Shown here piece after piece: positions 7,178-39,866 of a stretch of DNA of 64,000 nucleotides (positions are counted from its first letter, which is position 1; each line of letters opens with the position of its first letter). The position numbers were made by a program, and so were the translations under genes. Below the pieces are notes generated by a model, which worked only from the letters and a program-made list of their open reading frames with translations, searched no databases and had not been told where the DNA came from. The DNA comes from Bacteriovorax sp. (GTDB lineage Bacteria > Bdellovibrionota > Bacteriovoracia > Bacteriovoracales > Bacteriovoracaceae), in the NCBI GenBank assembly GCA_014377485.1, contig JACMPM010000024.1, positions 1-64,000 on the forward strand, given 5' to 3'.

Positions 7178-8311
7178 ATGACAAAAATCAAATCGCCTTT
7201 AAATTTTATCGATGTATTCTCAGGTGCCGGAGGACTCTCTTGCGGTCTTGAACTAGCAGGAATGAAATGTCTATTGGGGATCGATATGGATAAAAATGCC
7301 ATAGAGACCTTTAAGGCCAATCACCACTATGCCAATACTTTTTGCGGTTCAGTGATTGATCTCACCGAAAAAAAATTAAAAGAATTAATCAATAACGAAC
7401 CTGTTCACGCTGTTGTTGGTGGACCGCCTTGCCAAGGTTTTTCTACCGTGGGAATTGGCGACCCGAATGATCTAAGAAATTCTTTATTTAAAGAATTTAT
7501 CCGTTTAGTAAAAATCACTAATCCCTACTACGTTATTATTGAAAACGTAACGGGTTTGATCGCCAAAAAAAACGAGAAAACACTTAAGGCCATTTTTAAG
7601 CTGTTTGCAAAAATGGGTTATACCCTAGACGTCCAAGTCATGTCGGCAGAATTTTATGGTGTTCCAGAGCGCAGAAGAAGAACTATTATCATTGGTTCAA
7701 GACTTAATAACCAAATTTTTTTCCCAAAACCCATTACCGAAAATATTCAAACGGTGGGTATTGCTCTCAAAAACCTTAAAGCTCCCAATGGAAAAATTTA
7801 TAATCACGACCTGGATTCAGCAGTGATTAAGTCAAAGCTAGACCGCGACCGGATCAATCTTATCCCAGAAGGATGTGGCATTCGTTATGAAGCTGATGAA
7901 AAAGCCTATCTTCCTAAAAAATTACAATTAGGTGTGGACTGGAAAAATATTCGCGAAAATCGTTTGAGACAAACAAAGTACCAAAGACTTGATCGTAAAA
8001 AACCAAGTCCAACTATCATGACCCATAAACATAATTATTTTCATCCAACTGATAACCGCTACCTCACACAACGTGAAGCGGCCGCTCTACAAAGTTTTCC
8101 AAATGATTTTCAATTTTTGGGACCGCTCTCTGCGCAGTGGAGACAAATTGGCAACGCTGTTCCACCAAAACTGGGGTTGGCACTGGGTAAGGCCATTATG
8201 GCGATGTATGCTCAGCAATCGCTGGACAATTCAAAAGTTAAAATTAATAAGTCTGACGAAATTATGACGACAATCAGAAAGCGCGCTTTTGTTTATTCTA
8301 AAGAAGCCTGA
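7178..8311 (+). CDS. C5-cytosine DNA methyltransferase, apparently orphan
   Basis: The 377-residue protein transfers methyl from S-adenosylmethionine to C5 of cytosine in a specific DNA sequence. Motif I is DVFSGAGGLSCGLELAG. Motif IV is GGPPCQGFS with nucleophile Cys85. Motif VI is IIENV. Motif VIII is PERRRRTIIIGS. Motif X is RQIGNAVPPKLG. The target recognition region between motifs VIII and IX is short (about 190-275), so recognition is probably of a short site. No restriction endonuclease, Vsr or controller gene is adjacent. The nearest nuclease-like protein is 12 kb away. It converges with the ABC exporter gene, ending 8 bp from it. Confidence 0.95.
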   Translation: MTKIKSPLNFIDVFSGAGGLSCGLELAGMKCLLGIDMDKNAIETFKANHHYANTFCGSVIDLTEKKLKELINNEPVHAVVGGPPCQGFSTVGIGDPNDLRNSLFKEFIRLVKITNPYYVIIENVTGLIAKKNEKTLKAIFKLFAKMGYTLDVQVMSAEFYGVPERRRRTIIIGSRLNNQIFFPKPITENIQTVGIALKNLKAPNGKIYNHDLDSAVIKSKLDRDRINLIPEGCGIRYEADEKAYLPKKLQLGVDWKNIRENRLRQTKYQRLDRKKPSPTIMTHKHNYFHPTDNRYLTQREAAALQSFPNDFQFLGPLSAQWRQIGNAVPPKLGLALGKAIMAMYAQQSLDNSKVKINKSDEIMTTIRKRAFVYSKEA

Positions 8312-8319
8312 CAAAACAA

Positions 8320-10194
8320 TTAATGAACTGATTGAGCGTGGTGAAGTTTGTAAAAATAATTTCCCTGAGTCAATAACTCACTAAGCGGACCTTCTTCCAC
8401 TAATTGTCCTTGATTAAAAACAAAGACTCGGTCGCATTGTTTTAGAGTTTCCAATCTGTGGGCAATAATCAAACAAGTTCTATTAGTCATCATCTTCATA
8501 ACAGCTTCGTGAATAATTTCTTCGTAATAAGGATCAATGTTTGCCGTGGCCTCATCAAGAATGAGGATTGATGGATTCTTAAGGAGAACTCTCGTTAAGC
8601 TCACTAATTGTCTCTGTCCTACACTTAAGTTCGTACCACTTTCCAAAACGATCATATCGAGGTTAAAGCCTTCTTTAGAAAGAGCTTTTATCAGGCCCGT
8701 AGTTTTTGCTCCTTCAATTAATTCCTGATCACTCAATTTATCATCACAAGAAAGATTTTCTCTAAGACTTCCTTTGAAAATAATGGCGTCTTGGGCGACG
8801 AAACCAATTTGATCCCGAAGTGCATGTCGATCAAAATTTCTAATGGGAATATCGTCAATTTTAATTTCGCCCATTTGGAATTCATAGAGACGCGATAAAA
8901 GTGAAACAGTGGAACTTTTGCCACAACCTGTTTTCCCAACTAAACCAATTTTTTCCCCTGGTTTAATATGAAAGTTAAGATCCTTTAAAACCCAACTACC
9001 TTCACTATACTGCATGAAAACTTTTTCAAATTTAATATCGCCTTCAAGATGAGTTAGCGTCATCTTGCCATTATTTATAAGGACTTTTTCTTCATCGTCT
9101 TCATTTAAAAAACTCATAACTCGCTCAGTACTGGTAAAGGCCTGTTGAACGACGTGAATCTCTCGGGAGAGGAGCATCATAGGGTTGAAAAAACGTTCAT
9201 AATAACGAATGAAAGAAATAAAAAGACCGACACTAAAAATTCCGTTTATCACTCCTAGGCCTCCGTACCAAACTAAACCAATCAAAGGAATAGTTGCGCA
9301 AAAAGACACTAGCGGCATACTCCAAGCAAATAAAACATTTCCTCTTAGTTGAGCATAAAGATAATCATCAACTGTTTGGTCGTATTTTTCCATGGTCCAT
9401 TTTTCTAATCCAAAGCTTCTGATAACATCAATTCCATTGAGGTATTCAGAGAGTTTGGCATTGATCGCCGATGAGAATTTAGAAACTCTTCGGTTGGAGT
9501 TTTTTAAAAAATCTTTGGTTTTAAACATGAGAAAAAGAGAAGGTAAGATTGCCGCAGTCATGATCATTCCCAGTCGAAAATTTGAAAGAATCATGGCCGC
9601 TACTGCCAAGATTGTCATCATGCTGGCCGAGACTAAATTTCCCAAGCTAGAAGTAAAAAATTCTTCAATCCCTTCTACATCGTGTGTAATACGCGTGACG
9701 ATTCGACCTTGAGGCTGACGGTCGTAGTACTGCAACGGAAGTTCTTGAAGTTTTCTGAAGAGGTGTTCTCTAACAATAAAAATAACTTTAGAGGCCGAGT
9801 CAGCTAATATTTTTCGGCCGTGCCAAATAAAATAAACACTTCCTACTTCCAGGGCAACAATACTGAGAGCATAGTTGATAGATTTATTCATATTTTTAGC
9901 GATCAATCCTTTCTCTAACAAATCCCCCATCAATTTGGCCGATAAAATGGCAAGAAACGAACTGACGAAAATGAGTGCCATGGCAGCTGTAATTTGCAAT
10001 TGGAAAGGTTTAGCGTATTTAAGAAGAGTTTGGAGTGACTTTAAATCTCCAAGGCCGCTTTCATGAAGACGAGACTCGTCTTGGTCATCGGCCGTCAAAT
10101 ATGCATTTTTTGTCTTCTCGCTATAAAGTCCAACAGGCGTAAGATTTTTTTTAAATGAACGATTGAGAATTTTTTTAATTTTAATTTTTTTCAT
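8320..10194 (-). CDS. ABC exporter half-transporter (TMD-NBD), subunit B
   Basis: The 624-residue type IV ABC exporter has six membrane helices (about 70-360) and a C-terminal ATPase. Walker A is GKTGCGKSS. The signature is LSVGQ rather than LSGGQ. Walker B is ILILDEATANID with the catalytic Glu, and the switch is IIAHR. It overlaps the preceding half-transporter by ATGA, so they are translated together and most likely form a heterodimer of the LmrCD/TM287-288 kind. In such pairs one ATP site is degenerate; the altered signature here belongs to that site. An N-terminal extension of about 50 mostly charged residues precedes the first helix. The substrate is unknown (drug, lipid or peptide). 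Confidence 0.92.
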   Translation of the reverse strand: MKKIKIKKILNRSFKKNLTPVGLYSEKTKNAYLTADDQDESRLHESGLGDLKSLQTLLKYAKPFQLQITAAMALIFVSSFLAILSAKLMGDLLEKGLIAKNMNKSINYALSIVALEVGSVYFIWHGRKILADSASKVIFIVREHLFRKLQELPLQYYDRQPQGRIVTRITHDVEGIEEFFTSSLGNLVSASMMTILAVAAMILSNFRLGMIMTAAILPSLFLMFKTKDFLKNSNRRVSKFSSAINAKLSEYLNGIDVIRSFGLEKWTMEKYDQTVDDYLYAQLRGNVLFAWSMPLVSFCATIPLIGLVWYGGLGVINGIFSVGLFISFIRYYERFFNPMMLLSREIHVVQQAFTSTERVMSFLNEDDEEKVLINNGKMTLTHLEGDIKFEKVFMQYSEGSWVLKDLNFHIKPGEKIGLVGKTGCGKSSTVSLLSRLYEFQMGEIKIDDIPIRNFDRHALRDQIGFVAQDAIIFKGSLRENLSCDDKLSDQELIEGAKTTGLIKALSKEGFNLDMIVLESGTNLSVGQRQLVSLTRVLLKNPSILILDEATANIDPYYEEIIHEAVMKMMTNRTCLIIAHRLETLKQCDRVFVFNQGQLVEEGPLSELLTQGNYFYKLHHAQSVH

Positions 10195-32137: not shown

Positions 32138-33007
32138 TTAATTTTTTAAGTGGCCGGCGATTCTTTTGCCGGCCCTAAATTCAGAATATAACTCCAAATC
32201 ATTCGTCGGAAAGGCCAGCACTGGGAAAACACTTACTTCAGGAGAATCCCCGGCATCTTTTCTTTTTAAGCATGAGATAATATAAAAATAGTTATCTAGT
32301 TCTTTGATATAAGATTTTATATATACAAAGAAAGAATCCCCTTCTTTGTCGCGACTTTCGAAAACTTCATCTGGATTTTCCAGGGTTTCAGGAAAACAGG
32401 ACTCATAAAGTGTAAAGTCTTCAAATGAAATATCGTCATCTTTTCTTTTGACCAGCAATTCCGCCAGTAAAATTGATTTTTTATTTTCGAGGAGTTGCAT
32501 GAAGTTAAAATCTTCTTCACTAAACTCTTCTGAGATATCGCCCTTATCAGTGTTTAGCGTATTATCAATTTTTTCGCCTGCACGGATCTCTGCTAGGAAT
32601 TGACGAGACTTTGTTGTTGTAGTGAGAAAAACAAACGAAGCTTCACCGTTATAGATTTTGCAAATAACAACTCCGCTAAAATCGCTGTAATGCTTTATAT
32701 ACGTAAGAATTTCTTCTTCCAATTCATTGCTTGCTTTCCAAACTTCGCTAGGACTTGATAAAATTTCGTCCACTAATTGTTTGTCCGAAAAATTATAATT
32801 TATTTTTTCTTCCTCGATACCAAGATTTTTTCTCACGTCTAATTCAATACTTTCAAAATGGCGAATGAGTGGAATATAAAAATCTTCAATACAAGCTTCT
32901 GAGCAAAAGCCCTTGGTGCTATTGTCTTCAACAAAAAGTAGTTTATCAAGCGTAGGAAGTATGACCTTACACTCAGTACAGTAATAAAGAGGTTTATTAA
33001 ATTTCAT
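32138..33007 (-). CDS. Protein with N-terminal treble-clef-like zinc finger
   Basis: The 289-residue protein begins with CTEC (Cys10, Cys13) and FCSEAC (Cys35, Cys39), the CxxC...FCSxxC spacing of MYM/TRASH-type fingers. The rest (about 60-289) is two similar-looking halves, each with an acidic helix and a FVFLTTTT- or FYIISCL-like strand, with no catalytic motif. The first in-frame start is a TTG at 33016; the ATG at 33007 is used. It lies 15 bp behind the barrel protein gene on the same strand. A GC-rich hairpin falls inside its last codons (32153-32175). The role is unknown. Confidence 0.72.
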   Translation of the reverse strand: MKFNKPLYYCTECKVILPTLDKLLFVEDNSTKGFCSEACIEDFYIPLIRHFESIELDVRKNLGIEEEKINYNFSDKQLVDEILSSPSEVWKASNELEEEILTYIKHYSDFSGVVICKIYNGEASFVFLTTTTKSRQFLAEIRAGEKIDNTLNTDKGDISEEFSEEDFNFMQLLENKKSILLAELLVKRKDDDISFEDFTLYESCFPETLENPDEVFESRDKEGDSFFVYIKSYIKELDNYFYIISCLKRKDAGDSPEVSVFPVLAFPTNDLELYSEFRAGKRIAGHLKN

Positions 33008-33022
33008 TTGTTTCAATCATTG

Positions 33023-33901: not shown

Positions 33902-34145
33902 ACCAATCCTTGGATGCTCAAAATCATTTTTGGCGAGTACTTCATGTACCTATAGATAGGATACCTGCAAAAGGGAAAAATTTAAACCAAGTAAATTTAG
34001 CCGAGCAATTTTAGCGGTCAATATTTTTTCATTCTAACTTATTGTTTTTAGAAATTTGAGCGACTTCGGAAAGACTTACCTCTCCATATAAAGAAAAGAA
34101 TTCAACTAACATAATTAAACGGATCTTTTTTATTGGAGGATGTAT

Positions 34146-34457
34146 TTGGAAATTCATTATCGCCCAGAGGAATCTATGAAAGCACTTATTCATTTAGGAA
34201 CTCAGGGACACTATCCTCTCTTTCATGAAATATGGATGAAAGATCCTGAAATAAAAGAAAAAAAGTTTCAAAAAATTACAGGCCTCGAAAGGGCACGAGC
34301 TAAAAAACTTTTTCAAAGAGTTTCAAAACATCGACAACTAGAACACAAAAAAACTGTGCTTCAATCAATGGCCGATGAAGACAGAATCCTTTTTATGAAA
34401 GCTTTTTTTAAATTGGTCGAAGGAAAAATCCTCGATCTAAAACCTGAGATTCACTAA
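34146..34457 (+). CDS. Small basic protein of unknown function
   Basis: A protein of about 103 residues (MEIHYRPEESMKALIH...), basic and mostly helical (KEKKFQKITGLERARAKKLFQRVSKHRQ). Three starts compete: an ATG at 34140 directly behind GGAGGA (too close), a TTG at 34146 at ideal distance from that GGAGG, and an ATG at 34176 behind AGAGGA. It is followed after 2 bp by an exported protein and then, by overlap, by the coiled-coil/Hsp20-like protein, so the three form one unit. Confidence 0.65.
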   Translation: MEIHYRPEESMKALIHLGTQGHYPLFHEIWMKDPEIKEKKFQKITGLERARAKKLFQRVSKHRQLEHKKTVLQSMADEDRILFMKAFFKLVEGKILDLKPEIH

Positions 34458-34459
34458 AT

Positions 34460-34795
34460 TTGAAAAAAAAGATTTTTATCTCTTTATTCATTCTGCTCAA
34501 TTCAAAGCTCGCATTGTGCGAGTATAGAGTTTTTCAATACTACGTCCGACCTAAAATTCAGAACATCACTATAGTTTCGGCCGAACTAGTGACGTCTACT
34601 CTTGATCCGATTGCGTATGTGGCCTATCACGGTGGGAATGAATCTGTGGAAGTTAATCTTCTTCGTTCTTGGCAATGCATGGGTAACACTTCTAAAGCTC
34701 AAGTTTGCTCGATCAGTGAAGGGCGTGAACTAAACGGTGCCCCTCCAGTTGCAACGGCATTAGTTCCAACAGCTGCTTTTGGAGTTAAACCATGA
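34460..34795 (+). CDS. Small exported protein, middle gene of a three-gene unit
   Basis: The 111-residue protein starts from TTG and has a signal peptide (MKKKIFISLFILLNSKLALC, cut near EYR). The mature part has two cysteines 10 apart (QCMGN, AQVCS), suggesting a disulfide. It ends with a hydrophobic Ala/Val-rich tail. Its stop overlaps the next ATG (ATGA). The family is not recognised. Confidence 0.72.
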   Translation: MKKKIFISLFILLNSKLALCEYRVFQYYVRPKIQNITIVSAELVTSTLDPIAYVAYHGGNESVEVNLLRSWQCMGNTSKAQVCSISEGRELNGAPPVATALVPTAAFGVKP

Positions 34796-35967
34796 AAGTA
34801 ACTGACAATAGCACTGAATTACTGGATTATTCAAAAAAACTCGATAATAAACTTCGCAACGAAACGATTAAAAAAGAAACCGAGATTGATAATTTAAAAA
34901 AGATTTACGAAAAGAAAATAGATGCCACTAAAGTTGAGGGCGAAGACAACTACGTTAACAGCATTAAAAGAAACGATGATCTTTTAGTCGGAGCTTCAAA
35001 AAATTACGAAGATAAATTAAACAACTATAGAGAAAATCTTGAGAAAACTCAGAAAAGCATCTCTCAAGAAGAAAATTCACTTAAGAGTGATCATAATCAG
35101 AAAATGGAAGGCTTTAAGGATCAATACCTTAGCAATATGCATGAGCAGTTTAAATCTGCTAATGATAACCAGGAAGCTCTTCACCAGGAAACCCAAAATA
35201 ACTTGCAAACTATAACCGACAAATCACGGGCTGAAAAAATTCACCTCGATACAACAGCGAGGGCCGAGATCAATGCTCTTTCTAGTGAATATAATCAAAA
35301 AGGTGTTTCTACCGAAAGAGAATACCGGGCCACTTTAGATAATGATCTTCGAGCGCATCAAGCTGATATTAATCTTCAAAAGACTGAATTAAAAAAAGTG
35401 ATGGATAAAACTACTGAACAAAATAAAAGACTGGAAACAGAAAAAGCAAAAGTTCAAACAGACGAACTCACCTATCTCGACCTTCACCAAAAAGATATTT
35501 TATCTCAAAAACAAAGTGACTTCAAAGTTCGTTATGAAAATCTGGTGAAAGAGCACGAAACATTACTGACGGAATTAAAAACCCATTTTGCAGCAGATGT
35601 TAAAAAAATGGTCGAGCAAAATGCCGGTCAAAAAAGAATTATTGCTAATAGATCTGATGATCAGTTCTACCGGGTTGAAACTCTCAAGCCAACTATTGTT
35701 GAGAATGTAAAAGAATACGTGGTTTCAATCGCTGTGCCTGAACATGAAAAAGAAAATGTCCATTTATCGGTTCATGGACGTGGTGTTAAGATGACGTTAA
35801 CCAGAAAATATACCGAATCTATGGATGATAAAGATGGCAGCACTAATAGGTCCACAAGAAACGAGCTCTATAGTAAAGAGTTTCCAAGTAAAGATATCTT
35901 AAATCCAAAACAAGTCGTTCAAAAATACGAAGATGGCGTCCTGACTTATAAAATTCAAAAACTCTAA
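34792..35967 (+). CDS. Long coiled coil fused to an Hsp20-like domain
   Basis: The 391-residue protein has no signal peptide. Residues about 1-285 are almost unbroken charged helix (Lys/Glu/Asp/Gln with heptad spacing), a long coiled coil. Residues about 290-391 look like an alpha-crystallin (Hsp20) domain: ENVKEYVVSIAVPEHEKENV, then HLSVHGRGVKMTLTR, and near the end YEDGVLTYKIQKL, matching the VPG..kenIxVxVxGxxLxI and the GVLxIxIPK signatures. Small heat-shock proteins normally carry short N-termini, not a 285-residue coil. It is the last gene of a three-gene unit, coupled by ATGA. Its role may be structural or chaperone-like. Confidence 0.75.
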   Translation: MKVTDNSTELLDYSKKLDNKLRNETIKKETEIDNLKKIYEKKIDATKVEGEDNYVNSIKRNDDLLVGASKNYEDKLNNYRENLEKTQKSISQEENSLKSDHNQKMEGFKDQYLSNMHEQFKSANDNQEALHQETQNNLQTITDKSRAEKIHLDTTARAEINALSSEYNQKGVSTEREYRATLDNDLRAHQADINLQKTELKKVMDKTTEQNKRLETEKAKVQTDELTYLDLHQKDILSQKQSDFKVRYENLVKEHETLLTELKTHFAADVKKMVEQNAGQKRIIANRSDDQFYRVETLKPTIVENVKEYVVSIAVPEHEKENVHLSVHGRGVKMTLTRKYTESMDDKDGSTNRSTRNELYSKEFPSKDILNPKQVVQKYEDGVLTYKIQKL

Positions 35968-36856: not shown

Positions 36857-38023
36857 ATGAAAAGACCACATCTCGTTCATTTTTTGGCCATAGTGACTGA
36901 TGACTCGATTAACATCAAGGCATCCATCACTTTAAAGGAAAACGTAATCGCCCAAAACCTCGATCTCGACATTCCGACTCCAAAATTTCCTATACAGGCC
37001 TTAAGGCTACTCAATGCTTATCAATTCACCATGAAAATAGTAGGTGTGACCAAAGATCAGAAAGAAATTTATAAAAAATCTTTTGAATCTGATTCATTTG
37101 GAAATTTTAATTTTAAAATCCCCAAAACTCTCGAGCGCGATCAGATCGAAATCCTTCAACTCTTTGAAGTCAAAAAACGTCCAGGACTTGAGTTGCATCT
37201 TGGAACTTATATCCCACTGCGCATCTTCTCTCCCAAGAAAATTATCATTTGTGACTTTGATAAAACATTAGTTGATACCAAGTATTCAACTACCAAAGAA
37301 GTTTACCGCTCGCTGACGAGGCCTATGGCCGAGAATCCAACAGTGACATCAAGTGTAAATATTCTTCATCGCTATATTAGAATGGGCCATCACCCCTTCA
37401 TCCTTTCTGCCTCTCCTCATTTCTACGAAGATACGATGAGAGACTGGCTTTATAAAAATAATATTTTTTCGGCCGGAATATTTTTGAAAGATTACCGTCA
37501 TTTTTTCTCTTTTCTCGAAGGAGAACTCACTACTAAAGATTTAAAGTTCCAAGGTCTCTATAAACTCAATCATCTTTTGGATATTTTGCTGATGACTGGT
37601 ATTCCAGATGAACTGGTGTTGATGGGGGATAATTTTGAATCTGATCCGGCCATTTACCTTACATTGGCAAAAATTCTTCGCGAAGATATAGATCCATGGG
37701 TAATTTGGAATAACATTAAAGAACAGGATATTTTTCAGCTTAAGAAAAAACAAAATTCACAGTTCTTAAATAAGATCTACCAGCTCGACAATCTTCTGAC
37801 ACGTAAAAGAAAAGAAGGCGGCTACCAAAATCCTGCAAAAAAAATAATGATTAAAATTTATATCAGAAAAAGGTTCAAGGCAGATGAACTGGTTGCACCT
37901 GAATTTTTTGAAAAACAAAAAACATTTCTGGATTTAATCGAAATGTACGACGGCCTTTATCAAGAAGAATTTGACCGCTTACCTCAAGAAAAGAGTGTAA
38001 ATGGAGCCGATAAAACAATATAG
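36857..38023 (+). CDS. App1-like (DUF2183) phosphatase, cytoplasmic
   Basis: The 388-residue protein has an N-terminal beta-rich domain (about 1-125) and then a HAD-like phosphatase: IIICDFDKTLVDT (nucleophile Asp), HPFILSASPHFYE, a conserved Lys, and LVLMGDNFESDPAIY. This is the arrangement of yeast App1-type phosphatidate phosphatases (DUF2183). There is no signal peptide, and the C-terminal 100 residues are basic and helical. The last 40 bp overlap a small minus-strand membrane protein gene. An exported relative lies at 53100. Lipid phosphatase activity is inferred from the family only. Confidence 0.82.
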   Translation: MKRPHLVHFLAIVTDDSINIKASITLKENVIAQNLDLDIPTPKFPIQALRLLNAYQFTMKIVGVTKDQKEIYKKSFESDSFGNFNFKIPKTLERDQIEILQLFEVKKRPGLELHLGTYIPLRIFSPKKIIICDFDKTLVDTKYSTTKEVYRSLTRPMAENPTVTSSVNILHRYIRMGHHPFILSASPHFYEDTMRDWLYKNNIFSAGIFLKDYRHFFSFLEGELTTKDLKFQGLYKLNHLLDILLMTGIPDELVLMGDNFESDPAIYLTLAKILREDIDPWVIWNNIKEQDIFQLKKKQNSQFLNKIYQLDNLLTRKRKEGGYQNPAKKIMIKIYIRKRFKADELVAPEFFEKQKTFLDLIEMYDGLYQEEFDRLPQEKSVNGADKTI

Positions 38024-38246: not shown

Positions 38247-39866
38247 ATGGATCTCCTTACCCTTATCGGTGATGCTGAAGAAAATTTTTACCAATTAGGA
38301 CTTCTTGACCGCGAACGGGCAAAAGAAGTCCATCGCGATGTAAAACTGATGTTGCGAACGAGGTGGAAACCAGTTAACCAAGCGATTGAAGAGGTCGCTA
38401 AAATAGTTCTTAAGAACTCAATCCTGAAAAAGACTGACCAATACCGTCACTTAAAAAGTTATAGTGAGGGTTTGGGAATTAAATTTGAAGAAGCCGTTTA
38501 CGTCATGCTGATTCCAGAAATCGTAAGCTGTATGTCGAAATGGGCACCAGGGCTCATTAAAGGAAACTTAGGTTGCTCAAGTTTTTTTATGAGAAACGAG
38601 CAAAGCGAAGTCGTTCACGGGCGCATATTAGATTTTCCGTTGCAAGGCTCTTACGATACTTATGAACGTGCAATTCTCTATGACCTCAAAGGAATGCCTA
38701 AGATGTTAAGCTTTGGAGCTAGCGGTATTCCCTATCCTTCAATTACTTTAATGACTGAAGATGGCATTACTCTTTCTCTTCACCAAAAATTCACAAATGT
38801 TTTTAATAAAGATGGATCATCAATCTTTGAATTAATTTTTGATCTGATCAAAAACGCCAACGATAGAAAATCAACTCTGGAATACTTGCGCTCCCATGAA
38901 AGTATCACGACCTGGTGTCTTTACATGTCCTTTAAAAATGGAGATGCACTGGCCGTCGATCTTATGGGTAAAGAAATTTATGCAAATGAATTAACTGTTC
39001 CTGATGATGGAGTTTTGTACTTTTGCAATCATTTAGAAAATAAGGCCATCAAACAAGAAGATATGCTGCCGACTGGTTTTCACCAATACAACTTAATGCG
39101 GGAAGAAATTGCTCAGAAAAAAATTAATCATTTTGTTAAAAACAAGCAAAAATCTGAACTAGAATTAATTCGGATGATGGCCACACCTTATAATCAAAAA
39201 ATAAAAAAAACCGGGCATTATGAAAATTATCTAATGGATAATATTACGCCATCAAGTCTAACCGTTATGACCATGAATCCCACTTCAGGAACTGCGCTTT
39301 ATATTGACGGTCCAGCCCCAAAACTTTATCGCGACAACTTAATTTCCATCACTGATTGTTTTAACAACCTCTTGCAAAAAGAAGTCAAAAACAAAAAGCA
39401 TAAGGTTGTATCTGAAGATTATTATCAAGGAACTGCATCTTTAATGAAGGCCCAAAAAGGATTTGATCTCAACGATGCCCAAATTGTTTATCACAATTTA
39501 CAATTCGCCATTGATCATTTGGAGCATTATGCAGAAAAAGGTGTCGCCGAATTTTATTTTTTAATTGCACAGTATATGTTTGAGACTCATCCAAAAGTTT
39601 TAATGACTCTTTTACATGATTTCAAAAAAATGGAAGGTCATCTTCCCCAAACGCTCAATGATCATTGTCTGCTATTTATAGGCCGGTTAGAACGCATCCT
39701 AAAAGTGGCCAAGACATTGGAAGAAGATAAAATAATTCATCCAAAACTACGTGCTGTTTATAATTTTGAATTAAAAATTCCTAGATTAATTTTCCATCCG
39801 ACAACAAAAGGCATGATTGTTCCACGCCTGGATATTTTAGATGTTATTTATCTTTACACTTCTTAA
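38247..39866 (+). CDS. Ntn-type hydrolase / C45 acyltransferase-like
   Basis: The 539-residue protein has the Ntn-hydrolase hallmark of choloylglycine hydrolases, acid ceramidases and peptidase C45: NLGCSSFF with Cys110, then VVHGRILDF with Arg126 and Asp129. In these families the Cys is exposed by autocleavage or Met removal. Here it is 109 residues in, so internal processing is expected. There is no signal peptide. The C-terminal third is helical. It could hydrolyse amide bonds of lipids, N-acylhomoserine lactones or peptides. The substrate is unknown. It starts 27 bp from a divergent small gene. Confidence 0.75.
   Translation: MDLLTLIGDAEENFYQLGLLDRERAKEVHRDVKLMLRTRWKPVNQAIEEVAKIVLKNSILKKTDQYRHLKSYSEGLGIKFEEAVYVMLIPEIVSCMSKWAPGLIKGNLGCSSFFMRNEQSEVVHGRILDFPLQGSYDTYERAILYDLKGMPKMLSFGASGIPYPSITLMTEDGITLSLHQKFTNVFNKDGSSIFELIFDLIKNANDRKSTLEYLRSHESITTWCLYMSFKNGDALAVDLMGKEIYANELTVPDDGVLYFCNHLENKAIKQEDMLPTGFHQYNLMREEIAQKKINHFVKNKQKSELELIRMMATPYNQKIKKTGHYENYLMDNITPSSLTVMTMNPTSGTALYIDGPAPKLYRDNLISITDCFNNLLQKEVKNKKHKVVSEDYYQGTASLMKAQKGFDLNDAQIVYHNLQFAIDHLEHYAEKGVAEFYFLIAQYMFETHPKVLMTLLHDFKKMEGHLPQTLNDHCLLFIGRLERILKVAKTLEEDKIIHPKLRAVYNFELKIPRLIFHPTTKGMIVPRLDILDVIYLYTS

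Follow-up and report, generated by a model that had tools for sequence, protein, structure and literature searches.

Long predicted hendecad rods ending in an alpha-crystallin domain form a conserved protein family in the Bdellovibrio-type phylum

Annotation of a 64,000-nucleotide stretch of Bacteriovorax sp. DNA (the window) allowed us to characterize cc_hsp20, a gene whose product joins a long helical rod with an exact 11-residue (hendecad) repeat to a C-terminal alpha-crystallin domain (ACD). Members of the HSP20 family typically have a short variable N-terminal region, a small monomer and ATP-independent holdase activity. The cc_hsp20 protein of the window has neither the short arm nor the small monomer, with about 289 residues of helix preceding its ACD. 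Judged from homologous sequences, cc_hsp20 is a family conserved across the sampled phylum and not a one-off fusion. The gene and the parts of its product are laid out as follows, with window coordinates and the source of each assignment:

34792–35967, forward strand: cc_hsp20, 391 amino acids, ATG start; hendecad rod plus C-terminal ACD (open reading frame listing, Pfam, AlphaFold, homologues)
34810–35658, forward strand: continuous helix with the 11-residue repeat, residues 7–289 (AlphaFold and periodicity)
35659–35670, forward strand: DxFY hinge between rod and ACD, residues 290–293 (conserved in 21 members)
35692–35961, forward strand: ACD, residues 301–390 (Pfam HSP20 at 302–390, predicted strands, fold matches)
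35926–35943, forward strand: Hsp20 G-x-L signature YEDGVL, residues 379–384 (alignment of 21 members)

The AlphaFold model, built from an alignment of 21 family members, depicts a single chain with one helix (residues 7–289) followed by seven strands within residues 301–390 (mean pLDDT 82); its pTM of 0.31 leaves the orientation of the rod relative to the ACD undefined. Between the two parts, F292 of the hinge is invariant and D290 and Y293 are nearly invariant among the 21 aligned members. A sequence search of the PDB with the full-length protein returned zero matches.

A preliminary description, made from the DNA letters, had recognized an Hsp20-like C-terminus, and both profile and fold comparisons uphold it. 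The Pfam HSP20 model (PF00011) matches residues 302–390 with 26.6 bits (E 6.7e-6), over its curated cut-off of 20.8 bits, the alignment with HSP20 holds, and the predicted fold of the domain is a beta-sandwich. When the model was compared with solved structures using Foldseek, the best match was XaHspA (E 4.5e-5, probability 1.00, target TM 0.67), the second-best was human alphaB-crystallin, and the top matches were all ACD proteins. VIA-align gave Z of about 10 over 84–98 residues against Hsp26, Sulfolobus Hsp20.1 and others, while CS domains, which belong to the same beta-sandwich class, reached Z of 8–9. On the sequence evidence from Pfam, the family of the domain is HSP20 and not CS. The G-x-L signature reads Y-E-D-G-V-L, with G382 invariant and Y379 and L384 nearly so in the 21 members.

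In ordinary small heat-shock proteins the ACD groove is occupied by an IxI tail, and a C-terminal IxI/V extension is common, if not universal, in the HSP20 family. No such tail is present in cc_hsp20, where a single residue follows the last predicted strand; its absence weakens the case for a typical small heat-shock protein and leaves the domain assignment untouched. A metazoan-type ACD lacking the beta6 loop, hinted at by a long predicted hairpin, was also considered and dropped, as the loop, judged by eye, has the same length as in the ordinary Hsp20 encoded by the same genome. Small heat-shock proteins are generic holdases with arms that are usually short and flexible, and the true HSP20 domain raises the question of whether cc_hsp20 itself acts in stress as a long-armed holdase, in which the rod would only set oligomer geometry and the clients would be general unfolded proteins. 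We regard this as unlikely: the same genome encodes further HSP20 proteins, the ordinary one having a normal short arm and an IQI tail, and the fixed gene neighbourhood and exact repeat register of cc_hsp20 (below) suggest a dedicated role.

The N-terminal region had been described as a long coiled coil. The single long helix (7–289) stands, but the canonical heptad coil does not, the period being 11/3. The best hydrophobic period of the helix falls at 3.64–3.68 in 40 of 44 homologues, and across homologues the mean z is 5.3 at a period of 3.66 versus −0.2 at 3.5. With the window protein's residues shuffled 10,000 times, no shuffle produced a peak as high as the observed one anywhere between periods 3.2 and 4.2, whereas the signal at 3.5 is not significant (1,097 of 10,000 shuffles were as strong). 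The z of −0.2 and the shuffle test together rule out a canonical heptad coiled coil (period 3.5, a/d core). Hydrophobic autocorrelation of the rods has maxima at 11, 22, 33 and 44, and cc_hsp20 combines the 11/3 hydrophobic periodicity with the a, d(e), h core of a hendecad. With DxFY as the anchor, rows of 11 keep the core columns a, d/e and h aligned over as many as 36 rows, and the register can be followed for about 396 residues before the motif in families that differ in rod length. The register is thus fixed relative to the ACD, and the constancy of the columns indicates that rod length has changed with the register kept. In two homologues of one family (L046 and L109) the hendecad signal was not seen, and in another homologue (L039) the peak lies at a different period.

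The composition of the rods bears on what the helix might do. Proline is missing from almost all rods of the homologue set, and the seam takes up about 3 of every 11 positions, is depleted in alanine and leaves charges mixed round the remaining helix surface; mean hydrophobicity is near zero, and the net charge of the window rod is −5. Amphipathic helices of 11/3 periodicity bind lipid in apolipoproteins, alpha-synuclein and perilipins, apolipoprotein repeats being of 11/22 residues. The 11/22 period of the rod would therefore also fit a membrane- or lipid-binding helix that tethers the ACD to the inner membrane, and the Pfam apolipoprotein A1/A4/E model does weakly match the rod of one homologue (L111, 5585–7117, reverse strand; E 1.1e-5, far under the cut-off), a match probably due to the common 11/22-residue periodicity. 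The narrow hydrophobic face, the unsegregated charges and the near-zero mean hydrophobicity disfavour this reading, which we consider improbable; a seam so narrow and so poor in alanine fits a straight oligomeric rod better than a helix that binds lipid. In hendecads, alanine, a small residue, in the core gives dimers and bulky cores give higher oligomers (PMC9858780). Applied to the alanine-poor seam of the cc_hsp20 rods, this packing rule points to a bundle of probably more than two chains. The unbroken 11-residue seam is an indirect indication, and the only one, of self-association itself.

Homologues of cc_hsp20 occur throughout the Bdellovibrio-type phylum, which is known for bacterial predators; they are 300–560 residues long, with rods of about 200–440 residues. 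The family profile matches 223 of 291 sampled genomes of the phylum, a count to be read as a maximum, since the profile covers the rod and weak matches may be other coiled coils. All 22 of the same-family relatives searched first have a homologue, and in a larger sample nine same-family genomes have no match; some lineages can therefore do without the gene. The distant homologues examined are open reading frames of 380–560 residues, and in 7 of the 10 scanned independently Pfam places HSP20 at the C-terminal end, over the cut-off. A contig profile search, which used a subset of the family alignment, found the nearest named relatives in Bacteriovorax and Bacteriovoracaceae metagenome genomes, followed by Halobacteriovorax and Bdellovibrionales. 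No relatives of cc_hsp20 were found in the viral contigs and plasmids searched. In one metagenome relative (G009, locus L036, about 7505–8692) cc_hsp20 is in two pieces through a stop or frame change, which would make it either a pseudogene or an assembly error. The architecture had been put forward as new, and provisionally it is, in that we found no account of it in open-access papers, those on Hsp20, small heat-shock proteins or alpha-crystallin in Bdellovibrio included; as a one-off fusion it can no longer be viewed, since the family is widespread in the phylum.

The genes around cc_hsp20 are also conserved, and the relevant features of the window are listed here:

32138–33016, reverse strand: divergent neighbour, a protein with a zinc-finger-like motif and two PBECR2-like units (PF18810, 46.3 bits)
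34140–34457, forward strand: bas105, first gene of the set, a 105-residue helical protein of an orphan family (open reading frame listing, Pfam, synteny)
34460–34795, forward strand: exp111, a small exported protein of an orphan family; two cysteines are invariant and the mature protein starts with EYRV
34792–34795, forward strand: 4-base ATGA overlap of the exp111 stop and the cc_hsp20 start
36857–38023, forward strand: APP1-type phosphatidate phosphatase-like protein, syntenic only in nearer relatives
38247–39866, forward strand: C45-type autoproteolytic acyltransferase-like protein, syntenic only in nearer relatives

The synteny set comprises 47 loci, a few of them interrupted by contig ends. 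Of these, 40 have exp111 upstream in the orientation of cc_hsp20, nearly always as the immediate neighbour; 39 have bas105, also in that orientation; and 40 have the PBECR2 protein upstream and oppositely oriented. This conserved order indicates that the grouping of bas105, exp111 and cc_hsp20, already noted from the window, is not due to chance. The bas105 reading frame stops 2 bases short of the start of the exp111 frame, and the 4-base overlap of exp111 and cc_hsp20 recurs in many near relatives, from which translational coupling of these two genes may be inferred. A wider set (a 292-residue exported protein, a 227-residue lipoprotein-like protein, MgtC, the APP1-type phosphatase and the C45-type protein) is common to nearer relatives only. 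The two units of the PBECR2 protein lie in tandem, and its N-terminus has a zinc-finger-like motif, CxxC...FCSxxC; the protein is found divergent beside the module across the phylum.

The exp111 protein has a signal peptide, a conserved mature start and a mature length of about 90 residues; its predicted fold is compact (pLDDT 82) and a fold search against the PDB gave no significant match. A Pfam scan assigned no believable family to exp111 or bas105; scattered weak Pfam matches in one or two bas105 members were taken as chance. At four loci (L046, L097, L098 and L109) bas105 and the PBECR2 gene are kept and exp111 does not adjoin cc_hsp20, which here has a shorter rod and is extended by a tail beyond the ACD; exp111 is accordingly not an obligatory partner. 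An export chaperone whose ACD holds the unfolded exp111 precursor until secretion would suit the signal peptide of exp111 and its position directly upstream, where its stop codon often overlaps the cc_hsp20 start, but is improbable, given those four loci and the difficulty of accounting for a 42-nm rod with so small a mature client.

The reading that we prefer, and to which we give about even credence, is that cc_hsp20 is a cytoplasmic rod-like scaffold or holdase with its ACDs at one end, positioning a partner of the conserved module. What it builds on is observed: the HSP20 domain, the match of the predicted fold, the 11/3 period and its constant register, sequence conservation and the order of genes. 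As no signal peptide is visible in cc_hsp20, a cytoplasmic location is expected. Residues 7–289 would self-associate by the 11/3 seam into a nearly straight, presumably rigid bundle with a length of some 42 nm (283 residues × 0.15 nm), with the ACD of each chain at the C-terminal end of the rod, joined via the fixed DxFY hinge. The lack of an IxI tail should leave the edge groove of the ACD accessible to a strand of some other protein, and the groove is probably filled in trans by a beta-strand of the partner. The protein could then keep or position that partner while being spatially fixed, unlike a free small heat-shock protein, and would serve the module of bas105, exported exp111 and the divergent PBECR2 protein. 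Partner and process are guesses, the process being guessed as envelope-related because the gene of an exported protein lies directly upstream, overlapping the start codon in near relatives.

The filament-forming chaperone scaffold suggested in the preliminary description is plausible as a hypothesis. A bolder version, possible though doubtful, is that the family represents a so far undescribed kind of cytoskeletal rod or molecular ruler of bacteria: hendecad bundles would organise an envelope structure conserved in the phylum, their terminal ACDs docking onto a partner strand or polymerising with it. More generally, the replacement of the arm by a long, exactly periodic rod in fixed register suggests that an ACD can serve as a positioned docking domain. 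The conserved neighbourhood, with two orphan families and a tandem PBECR2 protein, is apparently unstudied, and the family offers structural work a natural series of hendecad rods of various lengths.

Known systems resemble cc_hsp20 in part. FilP and Scy, DivIVA-like proteins of Actinobacteria, are long 11-residue-repeat rods with an a, d, h core, and their dimers have alanine in that core (PMC9858780); cc_hsp20, by contrast, carries an ACD, has an alanine-poor rather than alanine-rich seam and comes from a different phylum, and, as to an N-terminal DivIVA-like motif, Pfam gave no DivIVA match in 21 members. Hendecad helices of the b-subunit dimer form the stiff peripheral stalk of F-ATPase (PMC6131620), whereas cc_hsp20 has no transmembrane helix, ends in an ACD and shows no sequence match to it. 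The rod is of the same hendecad kind as FilP/Scy and the ATPase stalks, a likeness that is not evidence of homology to either. The Bdellovibrio hit locus (Bd0108/Bd0109), in which Bd0109 is an exported RHS-repeat protein and the partner of a small exported protein (PMC3818213; PMC4267844), was rejected as a counterpart, cc_hsp20 having neither an RHS match in Pfam nor a visible signal peptide. CS/p23 domains (Sgt1, Shq1, NudC) share the beta-sandwich class and come close in VIA-align, but Pfam gives HSP20 for cc_hsp20 and the Hsp20-type G-x-L strand is present. The closest likeness in the ACD is to small heat-shock proteins (PF00011), with the alpha-crystallin beta-sandwich, the G-x-L signature, a Pfam score above the cut-off and fold matches to XaHspA, Hsp16.5, Hsp26 and alphaB-crystallin; the cc_hsp20 family differs from them in having a 200–440-residue helical rod instead of a short arm, a total length of 300–560 residues, no IxI tail and a conserved gene neighbourhood.
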